From positions 62,001-126,000 of the forward strand of contig NZ_JAJOZK010000005.1 of assembly GCF_022419185.1 (NCBI RefSeq): a DNA stretch of 64,000 nt. The letters run 5' to 3'. The notes under the pieces are model-generated. The model searched no databases, was not told the DNA's origin, and worked only from the letters and a program-made list of their open reading frames with translations. Of the stretch, positions 25,232 through 35,370 are shown in pieces. How positions within the stretch are numbered: the first letter of the stretch is position 1; each line of letters begins with the position of its first letter. The position numbers and the translations under genes are program-made. The DNA is from Thermomonas flagellata. Lineage in GTDB: Bacteria; Pseudomonadota; Gammaproteobacteria; Xanthomonadales; Xanthomonadaceae.

Positions 25232-25708
25232 GTGCGCCCGTTCCTGCCGCTACCCCTCGCCTGCCTGTGCTGCCTGCTCGTGCCCGCGCTCCCGGTGCGC
25301 GCGCAGGAGCCTGGGCCGGAGGTAACCATCCCGCAGGAATACGTCCGCTACGACTATGCGCAGGTGCTGTCGGTCGAGCCGGTCTACCAGGTGCTGCGCA
25401 CCAGCCGCATGGAGCGGGTCTGCGACGTGGTCGACATGCCTCCCGGCGTGGCCGCGGCGCCCACCCAGGAGAACCCGCTCGAGCGCATGGTCAGCTCGCT
25501 GCGCCAACGCCTGTCGGGCGGCACCACCCGCGAGGAACGCGAAGCCGGCCTGAGCAACTGCCGGATGGCGCCGGTGGTGCGCGAAGTGCGCCGCGCCATC
25601 GCCTACGACGTCGACTACGTCTACCGCGGCAGCAAGTTCCGCACGCGCATGGACCGCGATCCCGGCAACCGGGTGCGGGTGCGGGTCTCGGTCACCCCGG
25701 TGCCCTGA
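25232..25708 (+). CDS. Small exported protein of unknown function
   Basis: 158 residues. A signal peptide covers about 1-24 ([19 protein letters not shown]). The mature part has [19 protein letters not shown] near its start and ends with [20 protein letters not shown] and [12 protein letters not shown]. These two strands recall the outer parts of Xanthomonadaceae proteins that usually carry a glycine-zipper segment between them, but no glycine zipper is present here. Two Cys in the mature region (VCDVV, SNCRM) could form a disulfide. The start is a GTG, with TAGACT at 25220-25225 as a possible -10 very close to it. Confidence 0.75.
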
Positions 25709-25758
25709 CCGCAGTTGCCGGTTGCGCCGGCTGCGCCGGCATGCGAGCATCCGTGGCC

Positions 25759-25860
25759 ATGTCCCTGCACCTGCACGCCCGTCACGCCTGCGCCGCCCGG
25801 ATGGCCTCCGGGATGACCTCGCGCGCGCGCCGACCGCACCGCCGATCCCAGGCTGGGTAG
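25759..25860 (+). CDS. Arginine-rich leader peptide of the arg operon
   Basis: Candidate 33-residue regulatory peptide. It contains seven Arg codons; five fall within eight codons (25822-25845: Arg-Ala-Arg-Arg-Pro-His-Arg-Arg), and two of these are CGA, which appears uncommon in the surrounding genes. It ends with TAG at 25858-25860, directly on the proposed antiterminator strand. Other in-frame ATGs at 25741, 25801 and 25813 would give peptides of 39, 19 and 15 residues that keep the Arg cluster. No strong ribosome site is seen before any of them. A promoter-like pair (TTGCGC at 25722, 17 bp, GAGCAT at 25745) could start transcription close to 25757. See the attenuator entry. Confidence 0.65.
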   Translation: MSLHLHARHACAARMASGMTSRARRPHRRSQAG

Positions 25861-25924
25861 CCGGTCCGCGCCCGCGCGTGCATACCGTCCAGAACCCAGC
25901 CCCGTGCTGGGTTCTTGCGTTTTT
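25851..25924 (+). promoter_or_regulatory. Arginine transcription attenuator: antiterminator / terminator
   Basis: The terminator is AGAACCCAGC (25891-25900) paired with GCTGGGTTCT (25906-25915), a perfect 10-bp stem with a 5-nt loop, followed by TGCG and five T (25920-25924). A competing strand GGCTGGGT (25851-25858) overlaps the leader-peptide stop codon and can pair with ACCCAGCC (25894-25901), an 8-bp helix that would destroy the terminator. A small local hairpin (CCCA / TGGG, 25847-25857) could act as a pause or 1:2 structure. The U-tract ends 44 bp before the argF' ATG. Pairings were read directly; the regulatory role is inferred. Confidence 0.75.
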
Positions 25925-25968
25925 CCGTTCCTGCATCCGTTGCCGATGTGACCAACCGAGCGCCGCCG

Positions 25969-26970
25969 ATGAAGCATTTCCTCAATACCCAGGACTGGAG
26001 CCGCACCGACCTCGACGCCCTGTTGGCGCAGGCCGCCGCGTTCAAGCGCGAGAAGTGGGGCGATGCGATGAAGGGGCGCGCGATCGCGCTGGTGTTCTTC
26101 AACCCGTCGATGCGCACCCGCACCAGCTTCGAGCTGGGGGCGTTCCAACTCGGCGGCCACGCGGTGGTGCTGCAGCCGGGCAAGGACGCCTGGCCGATCG
26201 AGTTCGACTTCGGCACGGTGATGGACGGCGAGGCCGAGGAGCACATCGCGGAAGTGGCACGGGTGCTGGCGCGCTACGTGGACCTGATCGGCGTGCGCGC
26301 GTTCCCGAAGTTCCAGGACTGGACGCAGGACCGCGAGGACAAGGTGCTGCGCGCCTTCGCCAAGTACTCCACGGTGCCGGTGATCAACATGGAGACGATC
26401 ACCCACCCCTGCCAGGAGCTGGCGCACGTACTGGCGCTGCAGGAGCACTTCGGCACCACCGACCTGCGCGGCAAGAAGTACGTGCTGACCTGGACCTACC
26501 ATCCCAAGCCGCTGAACACCGCGGTGGCCAATTCCGCGCTGACCATCGCCACCCGCTTCGGGCTGGACGTGACCCTGCTGTGCCCGACCCCGGAGTACGT
26601 GCTGGACGAGCGCTACCTGGGCTGGGCGCAGGCGAACGTGGCCGAGTCCGGCGGCAGCTTCACCATCAGCCACGACATCGCATCGGCCTACCGCGGCGCC
26701 GACGTGGTGTACGCCAAGAGCTGGGGTGCGCTGCCGTACTTCGGCAACTGGGCCGCCGAGAAGCCGATCCGCGACCAGTACAAGCACTTCATCGTGGACG
26801 AGGCCAAGATGGCGCTCACCAACGATGGCGTGTTCAGCCACTGCCTGCCGCTGCGCCGCAACGTGAAGGCCACCGACGCGGTGATGGACTCCCCGCGCTG
26901 CATCGCCATCGACGAAGCCGAGAACCGCTTGCACGTGCAGAAGGCGATCATGGCGGCGCTGCTGCGCTGA
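25969..26970 (+). CDS. argF': N-acetylornithine carbamoyltransferase
   Basis: Transfers a carbamoyl group to N-acetyl-L-ornithine, giving N-acetylcitrulline, the Xanthomonas-type variant of the arginine pathway. The 333 residues show the carbamoyl-phosphate site FNPSMRTRTSFELG, the conserved HPCQELAHVL, WTYHPKPLNTAV, and the C-terminal HCLPLRRNVKATD in place of the HCLPA form of ordinary ornithine carbamoyltransferases. The adjacent argE-type deacetylase supports acetylated substrate use. A succinyl-ornithine variant cannot be excluded from sequence. The start at 25969 is chosen because it matches relatives (MKHFLNTQDWSR). Confidence 0.92.
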   Translation: MKHFLNTQDWSRTDLDALLAQAAAFKREKWGDAMKGRAIALVFFNPSMRTRTSFELGAFQLGGHAVVLQPGKDAWPIEFDFGTVMDGEAEEHIAEVARVLARYVDLIGVRAFPKFQDWTQDREDKVLRAFAKYSTVPVINMETITHPCQELAHVLALQEHFGTTDLRGKKYVLTWTYHPKPLNTAVANSALTIATRFGLDVTLLCPTPEYVLDERYLGWAQANVAESGGSFTISHDIASAYRGADVVYAKSWGALPYFGNWAAEKPIRDQYKHFIVDEAKMALTNDGVFSHCLPLRRNVKATDAVMDSPRCIAIDEAENRLHVQKAIMAALLR

Positions 26971-27024: not shown

Positions 27025-28269
27025 ATGACGACCCCCAACGACTCCCGCGACATCGTGCTCGCCTTCTCCGGCGGCCTCGACACCAGCTTCTGCGTGCCCT
27101 ACCTGCAGGAGCAGGGCTGGACCGTGCACACCGTGTTCGCCGACACCGGCGGCGTGGATGCGGAGGAGCGCGCCTACATCGAGGCGCGCGCCGCCGAACT
27201 GGGCGTGGCCAGCCACGTCACCGTGGACGGCGGGCCGGCGCTGTGGGCCGGCTTCGTCAAGCCGTTCGTGTGGGCGGGCGAGGGCTACCAGGGCCAGTAC
27301 CCGCTGCTGGTGTCCGACCGCTACCTGATCGTGGACGCGACCCTGGCGCGCGCGCGCGCGCTCGGCACCAATGCGGTCGCGCACGGCTGCACCGGGATGG
27401 GCAACGACCAGGTGCGCTTCGACCTGGCGATCAAGGCCAGCGGCGACTGGCGCATCGTCGCGCCGATCCGCGAGATCCAGAAGGAGCACACCCAGACCCG
27501 CGCCTACGAGCAGGCCTACCTGGAGGCGCGCGGGTTCGCGGTGCGCACCAAGCAGAAGGCCTACACGATCAACGAGAATCTGCTCGGGGTGACCCTGTCC
27601 GGCGGCGAGATCGACCGCTGGGAGGCGCCGGGCGAGGGCGCGCGCGGCTGGTGCGCGCGTCGCGAGCATTGGCCGCTCGAGCCCTTGGAGGTCGCCCTGC
27701 GCTTCGAACAGGGCGAAGCGGTGGCGCTCGACGGCAACCCGCTGCCGGGCGAGAAGCTCCTGGCCAAGCTCAACACCATGTTCGCCCAGTACGGGGTCGG
27801 GCGCGGGATATACACCGGCGACACCACGATCGGGCTGAAGGGCCGGATCGTGTACGAGGCGCCCGGCCTGGCCGCGCTGCTGGCCGCGCACCGCGCGCTG
27901 GAGGAAGCGGTGCTGACCAAGCAGCAGAACCGCTTCAAGCCGGAGGTGGCGCGCAAGTGGGTGGAACTGGTGTACGAGGGCTTCTACCACGACCCGCTCA
28001 AGACCGACCTGGAGGCCTTCCTCGCCAGCAGCCAGCGCATGGTCAGCGGCGAGGTGGTGCTGCGCACCCCGGGCGGGCGGGTGGATGCGGTGGCGGTGCG
28101 TTCGCCGCACCTGCTGCATGCCAAGGGCGCGACCTACGCGCAGTCGGCCGACTGGGGCGTGGCCGAGGCCGAGGGCTTCATCCAGCTGTTCGGCATGAGC
28201 AGCACCCTGTGGGCCGAGGTCAATGGCGGGCAGAGCGGCGGGCAGGGCCGCGGGCCGCACGGTGGCTGA
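27025..28269 (+). CDS. argG: Argininosuccinate synthase
   Basis: ATP-dependent ligation of citrulline and aspartate. The 414 residues start with the PP-loop [15 protein letters not shown], then [48 protein letters not shown] and [10 protein letters not shown]. The C-terminal tail is Gly/Gln-rich ([14 protein letters not shown]). It starts 54 bp after argF' and overlaps argE by eight bases. Confidence 0.97.
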
Positions 28270-29356
28270 CATGCTCGACGCGGTCCTGCGCCACCTCGAC
28301 GCCCTCGTTGCGTTCGACACCCGCAATCCGCCGCGGCGGATCGGCACCGGCGGGATCTTCGACTACCTGCGTGCGCAGCTGCCGGGTTTCCGGATCGAGG
28401 TGACCGACCACGGCGCCGGCGCGGTGTCGCTGCTGGCCGTGCGCGGCGCGCCGACGCGGGTGTTCAACGTGCACCTGGACACGGTGCCGGCTTCGGACGC
28501 CTGGAGCGCCGATCCGCTGCGCCTGCGGGTGGTGGGCGAGCGCGCCATCGGGCTGGGCGCCTGCGACATCAAGGGCGCGGCGGCCGGCCTGCTGGCCGCG
28601 GCGAACGCCACCCACGGCGATGCCGCATTCCTGTTCTCCAGCGACGAGGAGGCCAACGACGCGCGCTGCATCGCCGCCTTCCTCGCCCGTGACCACGGCT
28701 TCCGCGAGGCGATCATCGCCGAGCCGACCCGCTGCGAGGCGGTGCTGGCCCACCGCGGCATCAGCTCGGTGCTGCTGAAGTTCGAGGGCGAGGCCGGGCA
28801 CGCCTCCGGTGCCCACGCGCTGCAGGCCAACGCGCTGCACCAGGCCATGCGCTGGGGCTGCGCGGCGCTGGCGCTGGTGGAGTCCGAGTCCGGCGCGCGC
28901 TTCGGTGGGCTGACCGGCCTGCGCTTCAACATCGGCAAGGTCGAGGGCGGGATCAAGGCCAACGTGATCGCGCCGAGCGCGGAGGTGCGCTCCGGGTTCC
29001 GCCCGCTGCCGTCGCACGCCATCGAGGCCCTGCATGCGCGGCTGCGCGAGGGAACGCCGGGCGGCGTTCCGGTGCACTACGAGGAGACCTTCCGCGGCCC
29101 GCCGCTGCCGGCCGGCGATCCGGCCGCGGCCGAATCGCGCCGGCTGGCCGCGCGCGACCTCGCCGAGCGTCTGGGCCTGGATATCGGCCCGGCGGTCGAT
29201 TTCTGGACCGAGGCCTCGCTGTTCTCGCAGGCCGGCCTGACCGCGTTCGTGTACGGCCCGGGCGACATCGCCCAGGCGCATACCGCTGACGAATGGGTGG
29301 CGCTCGAGCAACTGCAGCGCTACGCCGCCTCCATTACCCGTCTGCTTGGGACCTGA
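28262..29356 (+). CDS. argE: N-acetylcitrulline deacetylase (ArgE/M20 family)
   Basis: Zinc-dependent M20 deacetylase, expected to release citrulline from N-acetylcitrulline made by argF'. Metal ligands lie in [14 protein letters not shown] (His, Asp), GLGACDIKG (bridging Asp), [13 protein letters not shown] (Glu pair), [11 protein letters not shown] and the C-terminal [13 protein letters not shown] chose the GTG at 28262 because [20 protein letters not shown] aligns with the usual N-terminus; it gives 364 residues. The ATG at 28271 is an alternative. The upstream in-frame extension is inside argG. Confidence 0.9.
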
Positions 29357-29362
29357 ACCACC

Positions 29363-30720
29363 GTGACCCCGACCCTCCGCCCGCATGCCGTGCATGCGCC
29401 GCAGACCCGTCAGACCATCGTCCGCCTGCTCTCCAGCATGGGCAGCGCGAAGGAGATCAGCCAGTACCTCAAGCGCTTCTCGCAGCTCGACGCGGCGCGC
29501 TTCGCGGTGGTCAAGGTTGGCGGCGCGGTGCTGCGCGACGACCTCGACGCGCTGGTGTCCTCGCTCGCCTTCCTGCAGGACGTGGGCCTGACCCCGATCG
29601 TCATCCACGGCGCCGGCCCGCAGCTGGACGAGGAGCTGTCCGCCGCCGGCATCGAAAAGCAGACCCTCGACGGCCTGCGCGTCACCTCGCCGGAGGCGCT
29701 GGCCATCGTGCGCCGGGTGTTCCATGCGCAGAACCTGAAGCTGGTGGAGGCGCTGCAGGCCAGCGACGCGCGCGCCACCAGCATCGTTTCGGGCGTGTTC
29801 GAGGCCGACTACCTGGATCGGGAACGCTACGGCCTGGTGGGCGAGGTCAAGCGGGTGGACCTGGCGCCGATCCAGGCCAGCCTGCAGGCCGGCTCGATCC
29901 CGGTGATCGCGTCCCTCGGCGAGACCGCCGGCGGGCAGATCCTCAACATCAATGCCGACTTCGCCGCCAATGCGCTGGTGCGGCAGCTGCAGCCGTACAA
30001 GATCGTGTTCCTGACCGGCACCGGCGGGCTGCTGGACGCCGACGGCAGGGTCATCGATTCGATCAACCTGTCCACCGAGTACGACCACCTGATGCAGCAG
30101 CCCTGGCTCGAGGGCGGCATGCGGGTGAAGATCGCGCAGATCAAGGACCTGCTGGACGGCCTGCCGCAGGCCTCGTCGGTGTCGATCACGCGCCCGGCCG
30201 AGCTGGCCAAGGAGCTGTTCACCCACAAGGGCTCGGGCACGCTGGTGCGGCGCGGCGAGCGCGTGCTGCAGGGCGAGGCGTGGAGCGACTTCGACCTGCC
30301 GCGCCTGCGCGGGTTGATCGAGTCGGCCTTCGGGCGCCGGCTGGTGCCGGACTATTTCCAGACCACCCGCCTGCACCGGGCCTATGTCAGCGAGCACTAC
30401 CGCGCGGCGGTGATCCTGACCCGCGAGGACGCCGGCCTGTACCTCGACAAGTTCGCGGTGCTGGACGAGGCGCAGGGCGAAGGCCTCGGCCGCGCGGTCT
30501 GGCTGGTGATGCGCGAGCAGACCCCGGCGCTGTTCTGGCGTTCGCGTCACGGCAACCCGGTGAATGCGTTCTACGATGCCGAATCCGACGGCTGCATCAA
30601 GCAGGCCCGGTGGAAGGTGTACTGGTACGGCGAGGCCGGCTTCGACCGCATCGCGCGCTACGTGGCGCTGTGCGCGCAGCGGCCGCCGACGCTGGAAGAG
30701 CCGGGCGGGGAGGCAGGCGC

Positions 30721-30724
<4 letters not shown>
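29363..30724 (+). CDS. argB: Bifunctional N-acetylglutamate synthase / kinase
   Basis: Fusion of an amino-acid kinase domain (about 40-290) and a GNAT acetyltransferase domain (about 300-445), resembling the Xanthomonas and vertebrate-type NAGS rather than E. coli ArgA. The kinase has [30 protein letters not shown] and [12 protein letters not shown]. The acetyltransferase has [19 protein letters not shown] and [12 protein letters not shown], the acetyl-CoA loop. It makes the first two steps of arginine synthesis from glutamate and is a likely target of arginine feedback. Start GTG at 29363; the end overlaps argC by four bases. Confidence 0.94.
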
Positions 30725-31679
<955 letters not shown>

Positions 31680-31683
<4 letters not shown>

Positions 31684-32975
31684 GCGACCTGCTTTGGCAA
31701 AAACCCGGCGTGCAGGTGGATGCCGGCCTCCAGGCCTTCCTGGCCGGCGACGACGTGCTGCTGGACCGCGAGTTCTTCCTGCACGACATCGCCGCCAGCG
31801 CCGCGCATGCCGAGGGCCTGCAGCGCATCGGCATCCTCACCGTGGACGAAGTGGGCAGCCTCAAGCGCGAGCTGGCCACGCTGGCCGAGGACTTCCGCAG
31901 CGGCGCGTTCGTGCTGGACGCGCGCTACGAGGACGGCCACTCCGCGATCGAGGCGCGCCTGACCGAGCGCCTGGGCGATGCCGGCCGCAAGATCCACACC
32001 GGACGCAGCCGCAACGACCAGGTGCTGGTCGCCACCCGGCTGTGGCTGAAGGAACAGCTGGCGCGGTTGATGGCGCAGGCACGCACGATCGCGAAGGTCG
32101 CGCTGGAGCGCGCCGCGGCCGAACACGACCTGCCGATGCCGGGCTATACCCATCTGCAGCGCGCGGTGGTGTCTTCCGCCGGGATGTGGTGGGCGGGCTG
32201 GGCCGAGGCCTTCATCGACGATGCGGTGCGCGCGCGCGACACCCTGGCGCTGGTGGACTGCAACCCGCTCGGCACCGCCGCCGGCTATGGCGTCAACCTG
32301 CGGCTCGACCGCGCGCACACCACGCAGGCGCTGGGCTTCGCGCGCATGCAGGTGTCCCCGGTGTATGCGCAGCTCTCGCGCGGCAAGTTCGAGCTGGCCG
32401 CGCTGGAGGCGCTGGGCAGCGCCACCCTCGACCTGCGCCGGATCGCCTGGGACCTGTCGCTGTTCACCAGCGCCGAGTTCGGGTTCGTGGCGCTGCCGGC
32501 GCAGTACACCACCGGCAGTTCGATCATGCCGAACAAGCGCAACCCCGACGTGATCGAGCTGCTGCGCGCCGCCCATGCCAGCGTGGCGGCGGCGCGCACC
32601 GAGATCGAGCAGCTGCTGTCGCTGCCGTCGGGCTATCACCGCGACCTGCAGGCGTCCAAGGGCGCGATCGTGCACGGCTTCGGCCGCGGGCTGGCGGCGC
32701 TGGCCCTGCTGCCGGACCTGCTGGCCAAGCTCGCGTGGCGGCCGGAGCGGATGCGCGCGGCGATCGATGCCGGCATGTACGCCACCGACGTGGCGGTGGA
32801 GGCGGCGATCGCCGGGGTGCCGTTCCGCGAGGCCTACCAGGCCGCGGCCGCGGATGCCGAGGCGGCCGGGCAGGGCAGGACGCCCGAAGGGTCGCTGGCC
32901 GCGCGCACCTCGCCCGGCGCGGCCGCGGACCTGCGCCTTGCGGAGCTGCGTGCGCGCTGGGAGGCGCTCGCCTGA
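31680..32975 (+). CDS. argH: Argininosuccinate lyase
   Basis: Splits argininosuccinate to arginine and fumarate; fumarase/aspartase superfamily. The 431 residues show [33 protein letters not shown] (catalytic His region), [12 protein letters not shown] and the signature [18 protein letters not shown] with the catalytic Ser. The C-terminus [16 protein letters not shown] is typical of the shorter bacterial forms. It is followed two bases later by proB, showing that arginine and proline synthesis are joined in one operon. Confidence 0.95.
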
Positions 32976-32977
32976 AC

Positions 32978-34111
32978 ATGCAGGGGTTCCCGCCGCAGCC
33001 GCTGCCGCCGTGGTCGCGCGCCGTGCTCAAGGTCGGCAGCAGCCTGCTGGCCGGCGCGGACGGGCTGGACCCGCGGCATGCGCGCGCGCTGGCCGGGTTC
33101 GTGGAGGCGGCGCGCTCGCGCGGGCGCGAGGTCGTGCTGGTCTCCTCCGGCGCGGTCGCGGCCGGGCGCGCGCGGGTGCCGGCGGCCGGCAACGGCCTGG
33201 TCCAGCGCCAGGCGCTGGCGGCGCTCGGGCAGGCCGCCCTGATCGGCTTCTGGCAGGCGCTGTCGCCGCGCGCGGTCGCGCAGGTGCTGCTGACCCACGA
33301 CGACCTGCGCCACCGCCGCCGCTACCTCAATGCGCGCACCGCGCTGCAGGAGCTGCTGCGGCTCGGCGTGCTGCCGGTGATCAACGAGAACGACACCGTC
33401 GCGGTGGACGAGCTCAAGCTCGGCGACAACGACAACCTGGCCGCGGCGGTGGCCTCGCTGGTCGGCGCCGACCTGCTGCTGATCGCGACCGACATCGCCG
33501 GCCTCTACAGCGGGCATCCCGGCCGAGACCCGCAGGTGCAGCCGGTGCCCGAGGTCGCCGCAGTCACGCCGGCGGTGCTGGCGATGGCCGGCCCGCCCGG
33601 CCGGCTCGGCACCGGCGGCATGCGCACCAAGCTCGAGGCCGCCGCCAAGGCCGCGGCCGCCGGCATCCCGACCGCGCTGTTCTGCGGCCGCGACCCGCAG
33701 GCGGTGGCGGCGCTGGCGCAGGACCGCCTGCACGGCACCCTGGTGCGCGCCGCGCCGGTGCGCATCAATGCGCGCAAGCAGTGGCTGCGGCATGCGCCGG
33801 CCGCCGGGCGCCTGCGGATCGATGCCGGGGCCGCGGCCGCGCTGGCGCGCGGGGCCTCGCTGCTGCCCGGCGGGGTGCGCGCGGTGGAGGGCGAGTTCCG
33901 GCGCGGCGACGTGGTCGAGCTGCTCGGGCCGGACGGCGGCTTGCTGGCGCGCGGGCAGGCGCAGTACAACGCCGGCGAATGCGCGCGCCTGGCCGGGCGC
34001 CACAGCCGCGAGATCGAGGCGCTGCTGGGCTTCCGCTACGACGACGTGCTGATCCACCGCGACGACCTGGTGCAGGTCGCCGCGGCCCCGCCCGACCCGG
34101 AGGCCCCATGA
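32978..34111 (+). CDS. proB: Glutamate 5-kinase
   Basis: First step of proline synthesis from glutamate. The 377 residues comprise an amino-acid kinase domain ([56 protein letters not shown]) and a C-terminal PUA domain from about residue 280 ([18 protein letters not shown]). The start ATG at 32978 follows the argH stop by two bases. It overlaps proA by four bases. Confidence 0.95.
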
Positions 34112-35370
34112 GCGGATACGTGCGAGCACTGGCGGAGGCGGCGCGCGCGGCGCAGGCGCAGATCGCCGCGCTCGTCCCGGCAGCGCGGCGCGCGCTGCTG
34201 CAGGACATGGCGGACGCGGTGGCGGACGCCGAGGCGGCGATCCTGGCCGCGAACGCGCAGGACATGCAGCGCGCGGCGGCGGCCGGGACCGGCGGCGCGC
34301 TGCTCGACCGCCTGCGGCTGGATCCGGCGCGGGTGCAGGGCATCGCCCAGGCGCTGCGCGAGGTGGCCGCGCAGCCCGATCCGGTCGGCCAGGTGACCCG
34401 CCGCGACACGCGTCCCAACGGCCTGGTGGTGGAACGCCAGCGCATCCCGCTGGGCCTGGTCGCGATGATCTACGAGGCGCGCCCGAACGTGACCGCAGAG
34501 GCCGCCGCCCTGTGCCTGAAGGCCGGCAACGCGGTGCTGCTGCGCGGCGGGTCGGAGGCGGCCGCCAGCAATGCCGCGCTGGCCGCCTGCCTGCACGCGG
34601 CGCTGCGCCGCGCCGGACTGCCGGAGGCGGCGGTCGGGCTGCTCGCGGATCCGGCGCGCGCGCACGTGCTGGAGCTGCTGCAGCTGTCCGACCTGATCGA
34701 CCTGGCGATCCCGCGCGGCGGCGAGAGCCTGATCCGGTTCGTGGCCGAACACGCGCGGGTGCCGGTGGTCAAGCACTACAAGGGCGTCTGCCACCTGTAC
34801 GTCGACCGCAGCGCGGATCCGGCGCAGGCGCTGGCGCTGCTGATCGACGGCAAGACCTCGCGCCCGGGCGTGTGCAACGCGGTGGAGACCCTGCTGGTGC
34901 ACCGCGAAGCCGCCCCCGCGTTCCTGCCGCAGGCGCTGGCCGCGCTGCGCGCGCACGGGGTGGAGGTGCGCGGCGATGCCGCCACCGCCGCCCATGCCGC
35001 CGAGGTGCGCCCGGCCAGCGAGGCCGACTATGCCGCCGAATTCCTCGACCTGATCCTGGCGGTGCGGGTGGTGGATTCGCTGGAGCAGGCGCTGGCGCAC
35101 ATCGCCCGCTACGGCTCCGACCACACCGAGGCGATCGCCACCGCTGATCCCGAGGCCGCCGAGCGCTTCGTGCAGGGCACCCGCAGCTCGGCGGTGATGG
35201 TCAATGCCTCCACCCGCTTCAACGACGGCGGCCAGCTCGGGCTGGGCGCGGAGATCGGCATCTCCACCACCCGCCTGCACGCCTACGGGCCGATGGGGGC
35301 GGAGGCGCTCACCATCGAGCGCTTCGTGGTGCGTGGCCACGGCCAGGTGCGGCATCCGCCGAGCGGCTGA
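34108..35370 (+). CDS. proA: Glutamate-5-semialdehyde dehydrogenase (gamma-glutamyl phosphate reductase)
   Basis: NADPH-dependent reduction of gamma-glutamyl phosphate, second step of proline synthesis. The 420-residue aldehyde-dehydrogenase fold shows [17 protein letters not shown], the catalytic Cys in [30 protein letters not shown] and [20 protein letters not shown]. Last gene of the arg/pro operon. The 155-bp gap after it has no clear terminator; a TAGACT hexamer at 35465-35470 may belong to the next operon. Confidence 0.96.

Follow-up and report, generated by a model that had tools for sequence, protein, structure and literature searches.

The DNA upstream of the argF'GEBCH-proBA operon probably controls it through ribosome-mediated transcription attenuation, with charged arginyl-tRNA as the signal, and, as part of the same reading, its leader would stand in for ArgR, which is absent from this lineage. 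The putative mechanism begins with transcription about 2 nt 5' of the ATG of a 33-codon ORF, whose translation would follow immediately. Under a shortage of Arg-tRNA, the ribosome is expected to stall at the R-A-R-R codons, chiefly at the slow CGA codon at 25831, with its leading edge stopping a few bases short of the strand GCTGGGT (25852-25858); the free strand would then pair with ACCCAGC (25894-25900) as soon as the latter is transcribed, thereby blocking the terminator and allowing transcription of the operon. When Arg-tRNA is plentiful, the ribosome would reach the stop codon and cover GCTGGGT, upon which the terminator would form.

Parts of the argF' leader and its operon

The leader lies in a window of 64 kb (the whole stretch of DNA that was analysed) from a 2.52-Mb genome whose nearest named relative is Thermomonas haemolytica, with an ArgF' that is 93% identical. 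Matches to NCBIfam give the gene order argF'GEBCH-proBA from 25969 onward (Table 1). We note that proB and proA (32987-35370) follow argH on the same strand; proline synthesis may be co-controlled with that of arginine through the argF' leader. ARAGORN reported a tRNA of unknown type inside proB, at 33083-33175, which is probably a false positive.

Table 1. Features of the argF' leader and of the operon that follows it, in positions of the window
Feature	Position	Strand	Basis
Candidate promoter: -35-like TTGCGC 25722-25727, 17-bp spacer, extended -10 TGC-GAGCAT 25742-25750	25722..25750	+	Sequence
Leader ORF, 33 codons and TAG, peptide MSLHLHARHACAARMASGMTSRARRPHRRSQAG followed by the stop; start ATG 25759-25761, stop TAG 25858-25860; putatively near-leaderless (~2-nt 5' UTR)	25759..25860	+	Sequence; conserved peptide core
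Arg codon cluster CGC-GCG-CGC-CGA (R-A-R-R), putative stall site; CGA 25831-25833	25822..25833	+	Codon conservation, spacing to strand
Antiterminator strand GCTGGGT, which spans the 3' end of the ORF and reaches into its stop	25852..25858	+	Kept relative to the CGA codon even where the stop moves upstream of the strand
Intrinsic terminator: AGAACCCAGC 25891-25900, loop CCCGT, GCTGGGTTCT 25906-25915, T5 25920-25924	25891..25924	+	Sequence; stem covariation
argF', N-acetylornithine carbamoyltransferase, first gene of the operon	25969..26970	+	NCBIfam NF003384, 626.7 bits (cut-off 288)
argG, acetylornithine deacetylase (argE), acetylglutamate kinase (argB type), argC, argH, proB, proA	27025..35370	+	NCBIfam equivalog matches

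The original prediction had described a frame ending at 25860 in which five of eight successive codons are Arg (two being CGA), the complementary strands GGCTGGGT (25851-25858) and ACCCAGCC (25894-25901), and a 10-bp terminator (25891-25915) followed by five T. Each of these parts was found where it had been placed, with the Arg codons at 25822-25845 and the five T at 25920-25924. The 5' arm of the terminator doubles as the partner of the antiterminator strand, with ACCCAGC pairing with GCTGGGT, and the hairpin stands ahead of the first structural gene, argF'. Neither Pfam nor NCBIfam holds a family for the leader peptide. The extended -10 element, TGNGANNAT, was found again 5' of the leader in relatives, and in Xanthomonas the equivalent promoter sits immediately 5' of the 5' RACE end of the previously catalogued RNA Xoo5. 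Placed by this promoter, the transcription start would fall about 2 nt 5' of the ATG at 25759.

Another ORF (25232-25708) ends shortly upstream of the leader, as might be expected if the hairpin were a constitutive terminator, of a common kind, that ends upstream transcription, with the short ORF and GCTGGGT present by coincidence. The promoter, however, separates this upstream ORF from the leader, and the order-wide retention of the leader ORF, the strand and their spacing (below) contradicts such a reading, which we therefore regard as improbable in the extreme.

Conservation of the leader peptide, its Arg codons and their spacing

To follow the leader through the order, ArgF' upstream DNA was collected from many genera as 216 regions, among which 186 distinct ones carry a recognisable leader and terminator; the main relatives in this set are not phylogenetically independent of one another. 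SRARR is encoded in 180 of these 186 leaders, although RARR served as the search key and its invariance is thus partly by construction. The M-T-S ahead of RARR, which formed no part of the key, is identical in 180/180, as is A at two earlier positions that were likewise left out of it, and the leader consensus reads ...(L)TSARMA(A/S)GMTSRARRP...AG-stop. The wobble positions of the T, R and A codons vary, with a column entropy by codon position of 0.14/0.02/0.88 bits and a pN/pS of 0.016 over GMTSRARR. This codon-periodic conservation, together with the low pN/pS, indicates that the leader ORF is probably translated and that its amino-acid sequence is under selection. The last RARR codon is CGA in 176 of the 180 leaders, compared with two CGA among 213 Arg codons in the operon genes.

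A degenerate MTSRARR(CGA) pattern matched 94 of 99 family genomes, and those match positions that were compared with the ArgF' table lie just 5' of ArgF'; a reversed-pattern control gave one match, and among 369 genomes of the class the matches outside the order look like chance. Further leader copies were sought and rejected, the pattern being single in 93 of the 94 genomes and repeated in one. The layout as first described goes far beyond chance, as nearly all of the 180 distinct leaders with the same core also share the same arrangement downstream.

The remaining six leaders (L163, L164, L166-L169) belong to other families of the order; they lack MTSRARR and carry an Arg run of their own, for example GRRARRTRR. 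In four of these (L163, L164, L167 and L168) GCTGGGT or GCTGGGC occurs at or near the stop together with a matching terminator, while L169 has the strand further from its assigned stop and L166 matches poorly; no leader was visible in L165, L170 or L171. The Arg codons therefore outlast the peptide in distant families, as would be expected if they are the sensor. The loss of Arg codons or of the competing strand from homologous leaders had been named beforehand as evidence against an attenuator, and across the order we found the Arg codons, GCYGGGY, the terminator and the spacing kept. We also observed one leader (L192, from the 2.3-Mb genome G034) that retains MTSRARR within a longer peptide without the terminal AG-stop and without a clear GCTGGG at the stop; a terminator-like hairpin still lies ahead of argF', and this may be a decaying attenuator.

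The distance between Arg codon and antiterminator strand was counted from the first base of the last Arg codon to GCYGGGY in the 165 leaders with a recognisable strand. It amounts to 21 nt in 140 leaders, 20 in nine, 22 in one, 18 in eight and 24 in five, that is, 18-24 nt in 163 of 165, with two outliers at 9 nt; in this window CGA 25831 is 21 nt ahead of GCTGGGT. The stop codon begins at the seventh base of the strand in 149 leaders and ahead of the strand in 15. Since the strand holds its position relative to the Arg codon while the stop shifts, we conclude that it is placed by the Arg codon and not by the stop or by Ala-Gly coding. The leading edge of a ribosome lies ~13 nt beyond the A-site codon; a ribosome whose A site is occupied by CGA would thus leave the strand free, and one at the stop would cover it.

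The same measurement bears on which Arg codons matter. The last two codons of the five-in-eight cluster (25840-25845) are specific to this genome and lie only 9-12 nt 5' of the strand, so that a ribosome stalled on them would reach or cover GCTGGGT, and they should not aid antitermination. We therefore rejected the five-in-eight cluster as the sensor. The Arg-codon attenuation logic of the original prediction gains support from the order-wide conservation, with its stall site moved from that cluster to RARR with CGA. A key role for the CGA codon is consistent with a Salmonella his-leader assay, in which this codon caused strong ribosome stalling and Arg pairs that contain it gave strong de-attenuation (PMC4046918).

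The leader peptide is stricter than a pure codon counter needs, G-M-T-S being dispensable for counting, and the nascent chain may add a pause or sense a metabolite. AGMTSRARR could on this account act in the exit tunnel, where the pause at RARR/CGA would respond to arginine, ornithine, N-acetylornithine or citrulline, or would occur constitutively and so sharpen the sensing of Arg; the RNA switch would be the same, and the signal would not simply be Arg-tRNA. Invariant residues around the Arg codons with free wobble positions are what such a sensor predicts, the stall-to-strand distance indicates one defined stall site, and precedents exist in the speF leader, which proved on later study to be an arrest peptide that senses ornithine, and in R-X-R motifs, which drive macrolide-dependent arrest. 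Distant families, however, keep an Arg run without MTS, as codon sensing predicts, and CGA is held at the codon level, which the peptide alone does not need. On this balance we consider a nascent-peptide sensor unlikely and retain attenuation by Arg-tRNA charging as the preferred reading. We also put forward, tentatively, a hybrid that we regard as possible but short of probable, in which the AGMTSRARR chain causes a pause at the rare CGA (next to CCG) that is tuned by Arg-tRNA or by a pathway metabolite and drives antitermination from a near-leaderless mRNA; such an element would have evolved from simple Arg-run attenuators, of the type seen in the distant families, and replaced ArgR.

RNA pairing and folding

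Covariation, which had been proposed as a check on both helices, is clear in the terminator stem, where 41 two-sided changes compare with 15.3 in shuffles (0/500 reach the observed value). It is weak in the antiterminator, for which 46/500 shuffles reach the observed value, and the pairing there is mostly kept: the strand/arm base pair, in the 163 leaders with both motifs, is T-A in 114, C-G in 31, T-G in 11 and a C-A mismatch in seven. Folding with a stalled ribosome and the 5' arm of the terminator already transcribed predicts formation of the antiterminator, at -17.7 to -22.5 kcal/mol in five leaders, and folding with the ribosome at the stop predicts the terminator alone. With the hairpin fully transcribed, the terminator becomes the predicted minimum whether or not the ribosome is stalled, which implies that antitermination must be kinetic.

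In the trp and his leaders a protector hairpin gives default termination without translation. A candidate for such a hairpin here, between the Arg-Pro codons and the post-stop sequence, was tempting in single leaders (GACCGT/ACGGTC in L060) and did not rise above shuffles across the set. With no protector hairpin supported, the untranslated or post-release state is left unexplained by the attenuation model. Two further pairings were rejected: a conserved hairpin 5' of the Arg codons (CCCGGA/TCCGGG) was not above shuffles (mean z -0.10), and an extended antiterminator with inner pairs was unconvincing (mean z -0.57).

Xoo5 and probable arginine control without ArgR

The original prediction knew of no described Arg-leader attenuator of this kind in Xanthomonadaceae; the RNA itself was already known in Xanthomonas oryzae as Xoo5 and had been filed without an arginine function. 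Matched at an E-value threshold, the Rfam family RF02242 (Xanthomonadaceae sRNA Xoo5; gathering cut-off 50 bits) scores 144.8 bits upstream of ArgF' in Xanthomonas (L070) and 110.8-126.9 bits in Stenotrophomonas and Pseudoxanthomonas loci, the highest of these in L033. The leader in this window scores 33.4 bits, under the cut-off, and is homologous by position and peptide.

Liang et al. 2011 (PMC3039613) located Xoo5 between PXO_00354 and PXO_00353, the latter listed as N-acetylornithine carbamoyltransferase in their Table 4, mapped its 5' end by RACE, gave its length as 124 nt and detected growth-phase-dependent Northern bands near 130 and 100 nt. Neither an ORF nor attenuation nor a function in arginine control was ascribed to Xoo5 there, which was filed as an orphan sRNA, and 'leader', 'argF' and 'ornithine' do not occur as separate words in the text (PMC3039613). 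Aligned on Xanthomonas L070, the RACE end falls 2 nt ahead of the leader ATG; the X. oryzae transcript thus starts at this ATG (PMC3039613), and the mRNA is near-leaderless. The 3' end found by cloning falls short of the terminator arm. Xoo5, in its published extent, thus covers the 5' portion of the leader, perhaps after trimming, and does not directly prove that transcripts end at the hairpin. We note that the RF02242 model (L070:1733-1856) likewise ends just 5' of the terminator arm, and that most leaders of the Lysobacter and Luteimonas types fall below its cut-off. A family extended to include the terminator would fit the element better.

That RF02242 is filed as an sRNA, and that its transcript was detected by Northern blot in X. 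oryzae (PMC3039613), would suit a locus that chiefly makes a trans-acting Xoo5, with argF' a mere neighbour. Against this stands the codon-periodic conservation, which points to a translated ORF, and the true matches to the family lie upstream of ArgF'. Four weak extra matches (L113, L127, L129 and L130), with no argF' nearby, were rejected as apparently ordinary coding DNA. The RNA is moreover Hfq-independent, and its deletion gave no obvious phenotype (PMC3039613). We thus judge a trans-acting role very unlikely and the cis-acting attenuator the better account of the locus. As a separate observation, deletion of sRNA-Xoo1 (beside thiC) lowered argininosuccinate synthase 3.25-fold (PMC3039613, Table 4) and is listed as also lowering N-acetylornithine carbamoyltransferase; these are the first two enzymes of the operon.

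An argR gene, whose presence had been named as a point to check, was sought with PF01316, which gave no match in this genome or in any of 149 family genomes, while the E. coli control was positive. Across the order the domain was found in 8 of 299 genomes, all of the family f11. In one of these (G158) the argR match at 19.7 kb and an argF homologue (41% identical) at 21.1 kb lie on the same contig, 17, and the upstream region of this argF (L171), the one f11 genome examined, shows no visible leader. This suggests a regulator swap within the order. In many gammaproteobacteria these genes are classically controlled by ArgR, a DNA-binding repressor, unlike the RNA leader described here.

Ribosome-mediated attenuation itself is of the classical kind. 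The trp, his, leu, ilv, thr and phe attenuators of proteobacteria likewise have a short leader frame that contains codons of the amino acid under control, a stop near the antiterminator strand, an intrinsic terminator before the biosynthetic operon and competing pairings; the argF' leader shares with them clustered end-product codons (RARR in 180/186, Arg runs in the other six), the terminator and the competing strand. It departs from them in serving arginine, in being near-leaderless, and in its strict peptide around the Arg codons, its one fixed rare codon and the absence of any protector hairpin that we could find. The speF leader (ORF34/SpeFL) of Salmonella and E. coli, whose Arg codons led to its reading as an arginine sensor, is likewise a leader ORF in which downstream RNA folding changes when ribosomes pause on successive Arg codons (PMC6386406); that leader, however, governs ornithine decarboxylase via Rho, RNase G and folding of the ribosome-binding site and not an intrinsic terminator of Arg biosynthesis, and its core is HIRRT, compared with MTSRARR here. 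Arginine T-boxes of Firmicutes also sense Arg-tRNA charging at the RNA level, but through direct tRNA binding and with no leader ORF, and the window gave no Rfam match at the gathering threshold. For arginine, the literature searched offers T-boxes, ArgR and the speF leader; one source (PMC1262725) lists arginine among T-box cases only, and a survey of premature terminators leaves it unmentioned in its main text (PMC2965389). Within the open-licence literature searched, this would be the first biosynthetic operon with a ribosome-mediated attenuator specific to arginine, and an earlier report may exist.

The leader offers a testable answer to how arginine synthesis is controlled without ArgR in a large order of environmental, plant-associated and clinical bacteria, which spans Xanthomonas, Stenotrophomonas, Lysobacter, Pseudoxanthomonas, Thermomonas and their relatives, and it supplies a likely function for the orphan sRNA family RF02242. 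With its invariant peptide and fixed CGA, it would also make a clean system in which to tell codon sensing from nascent-chain sensing.
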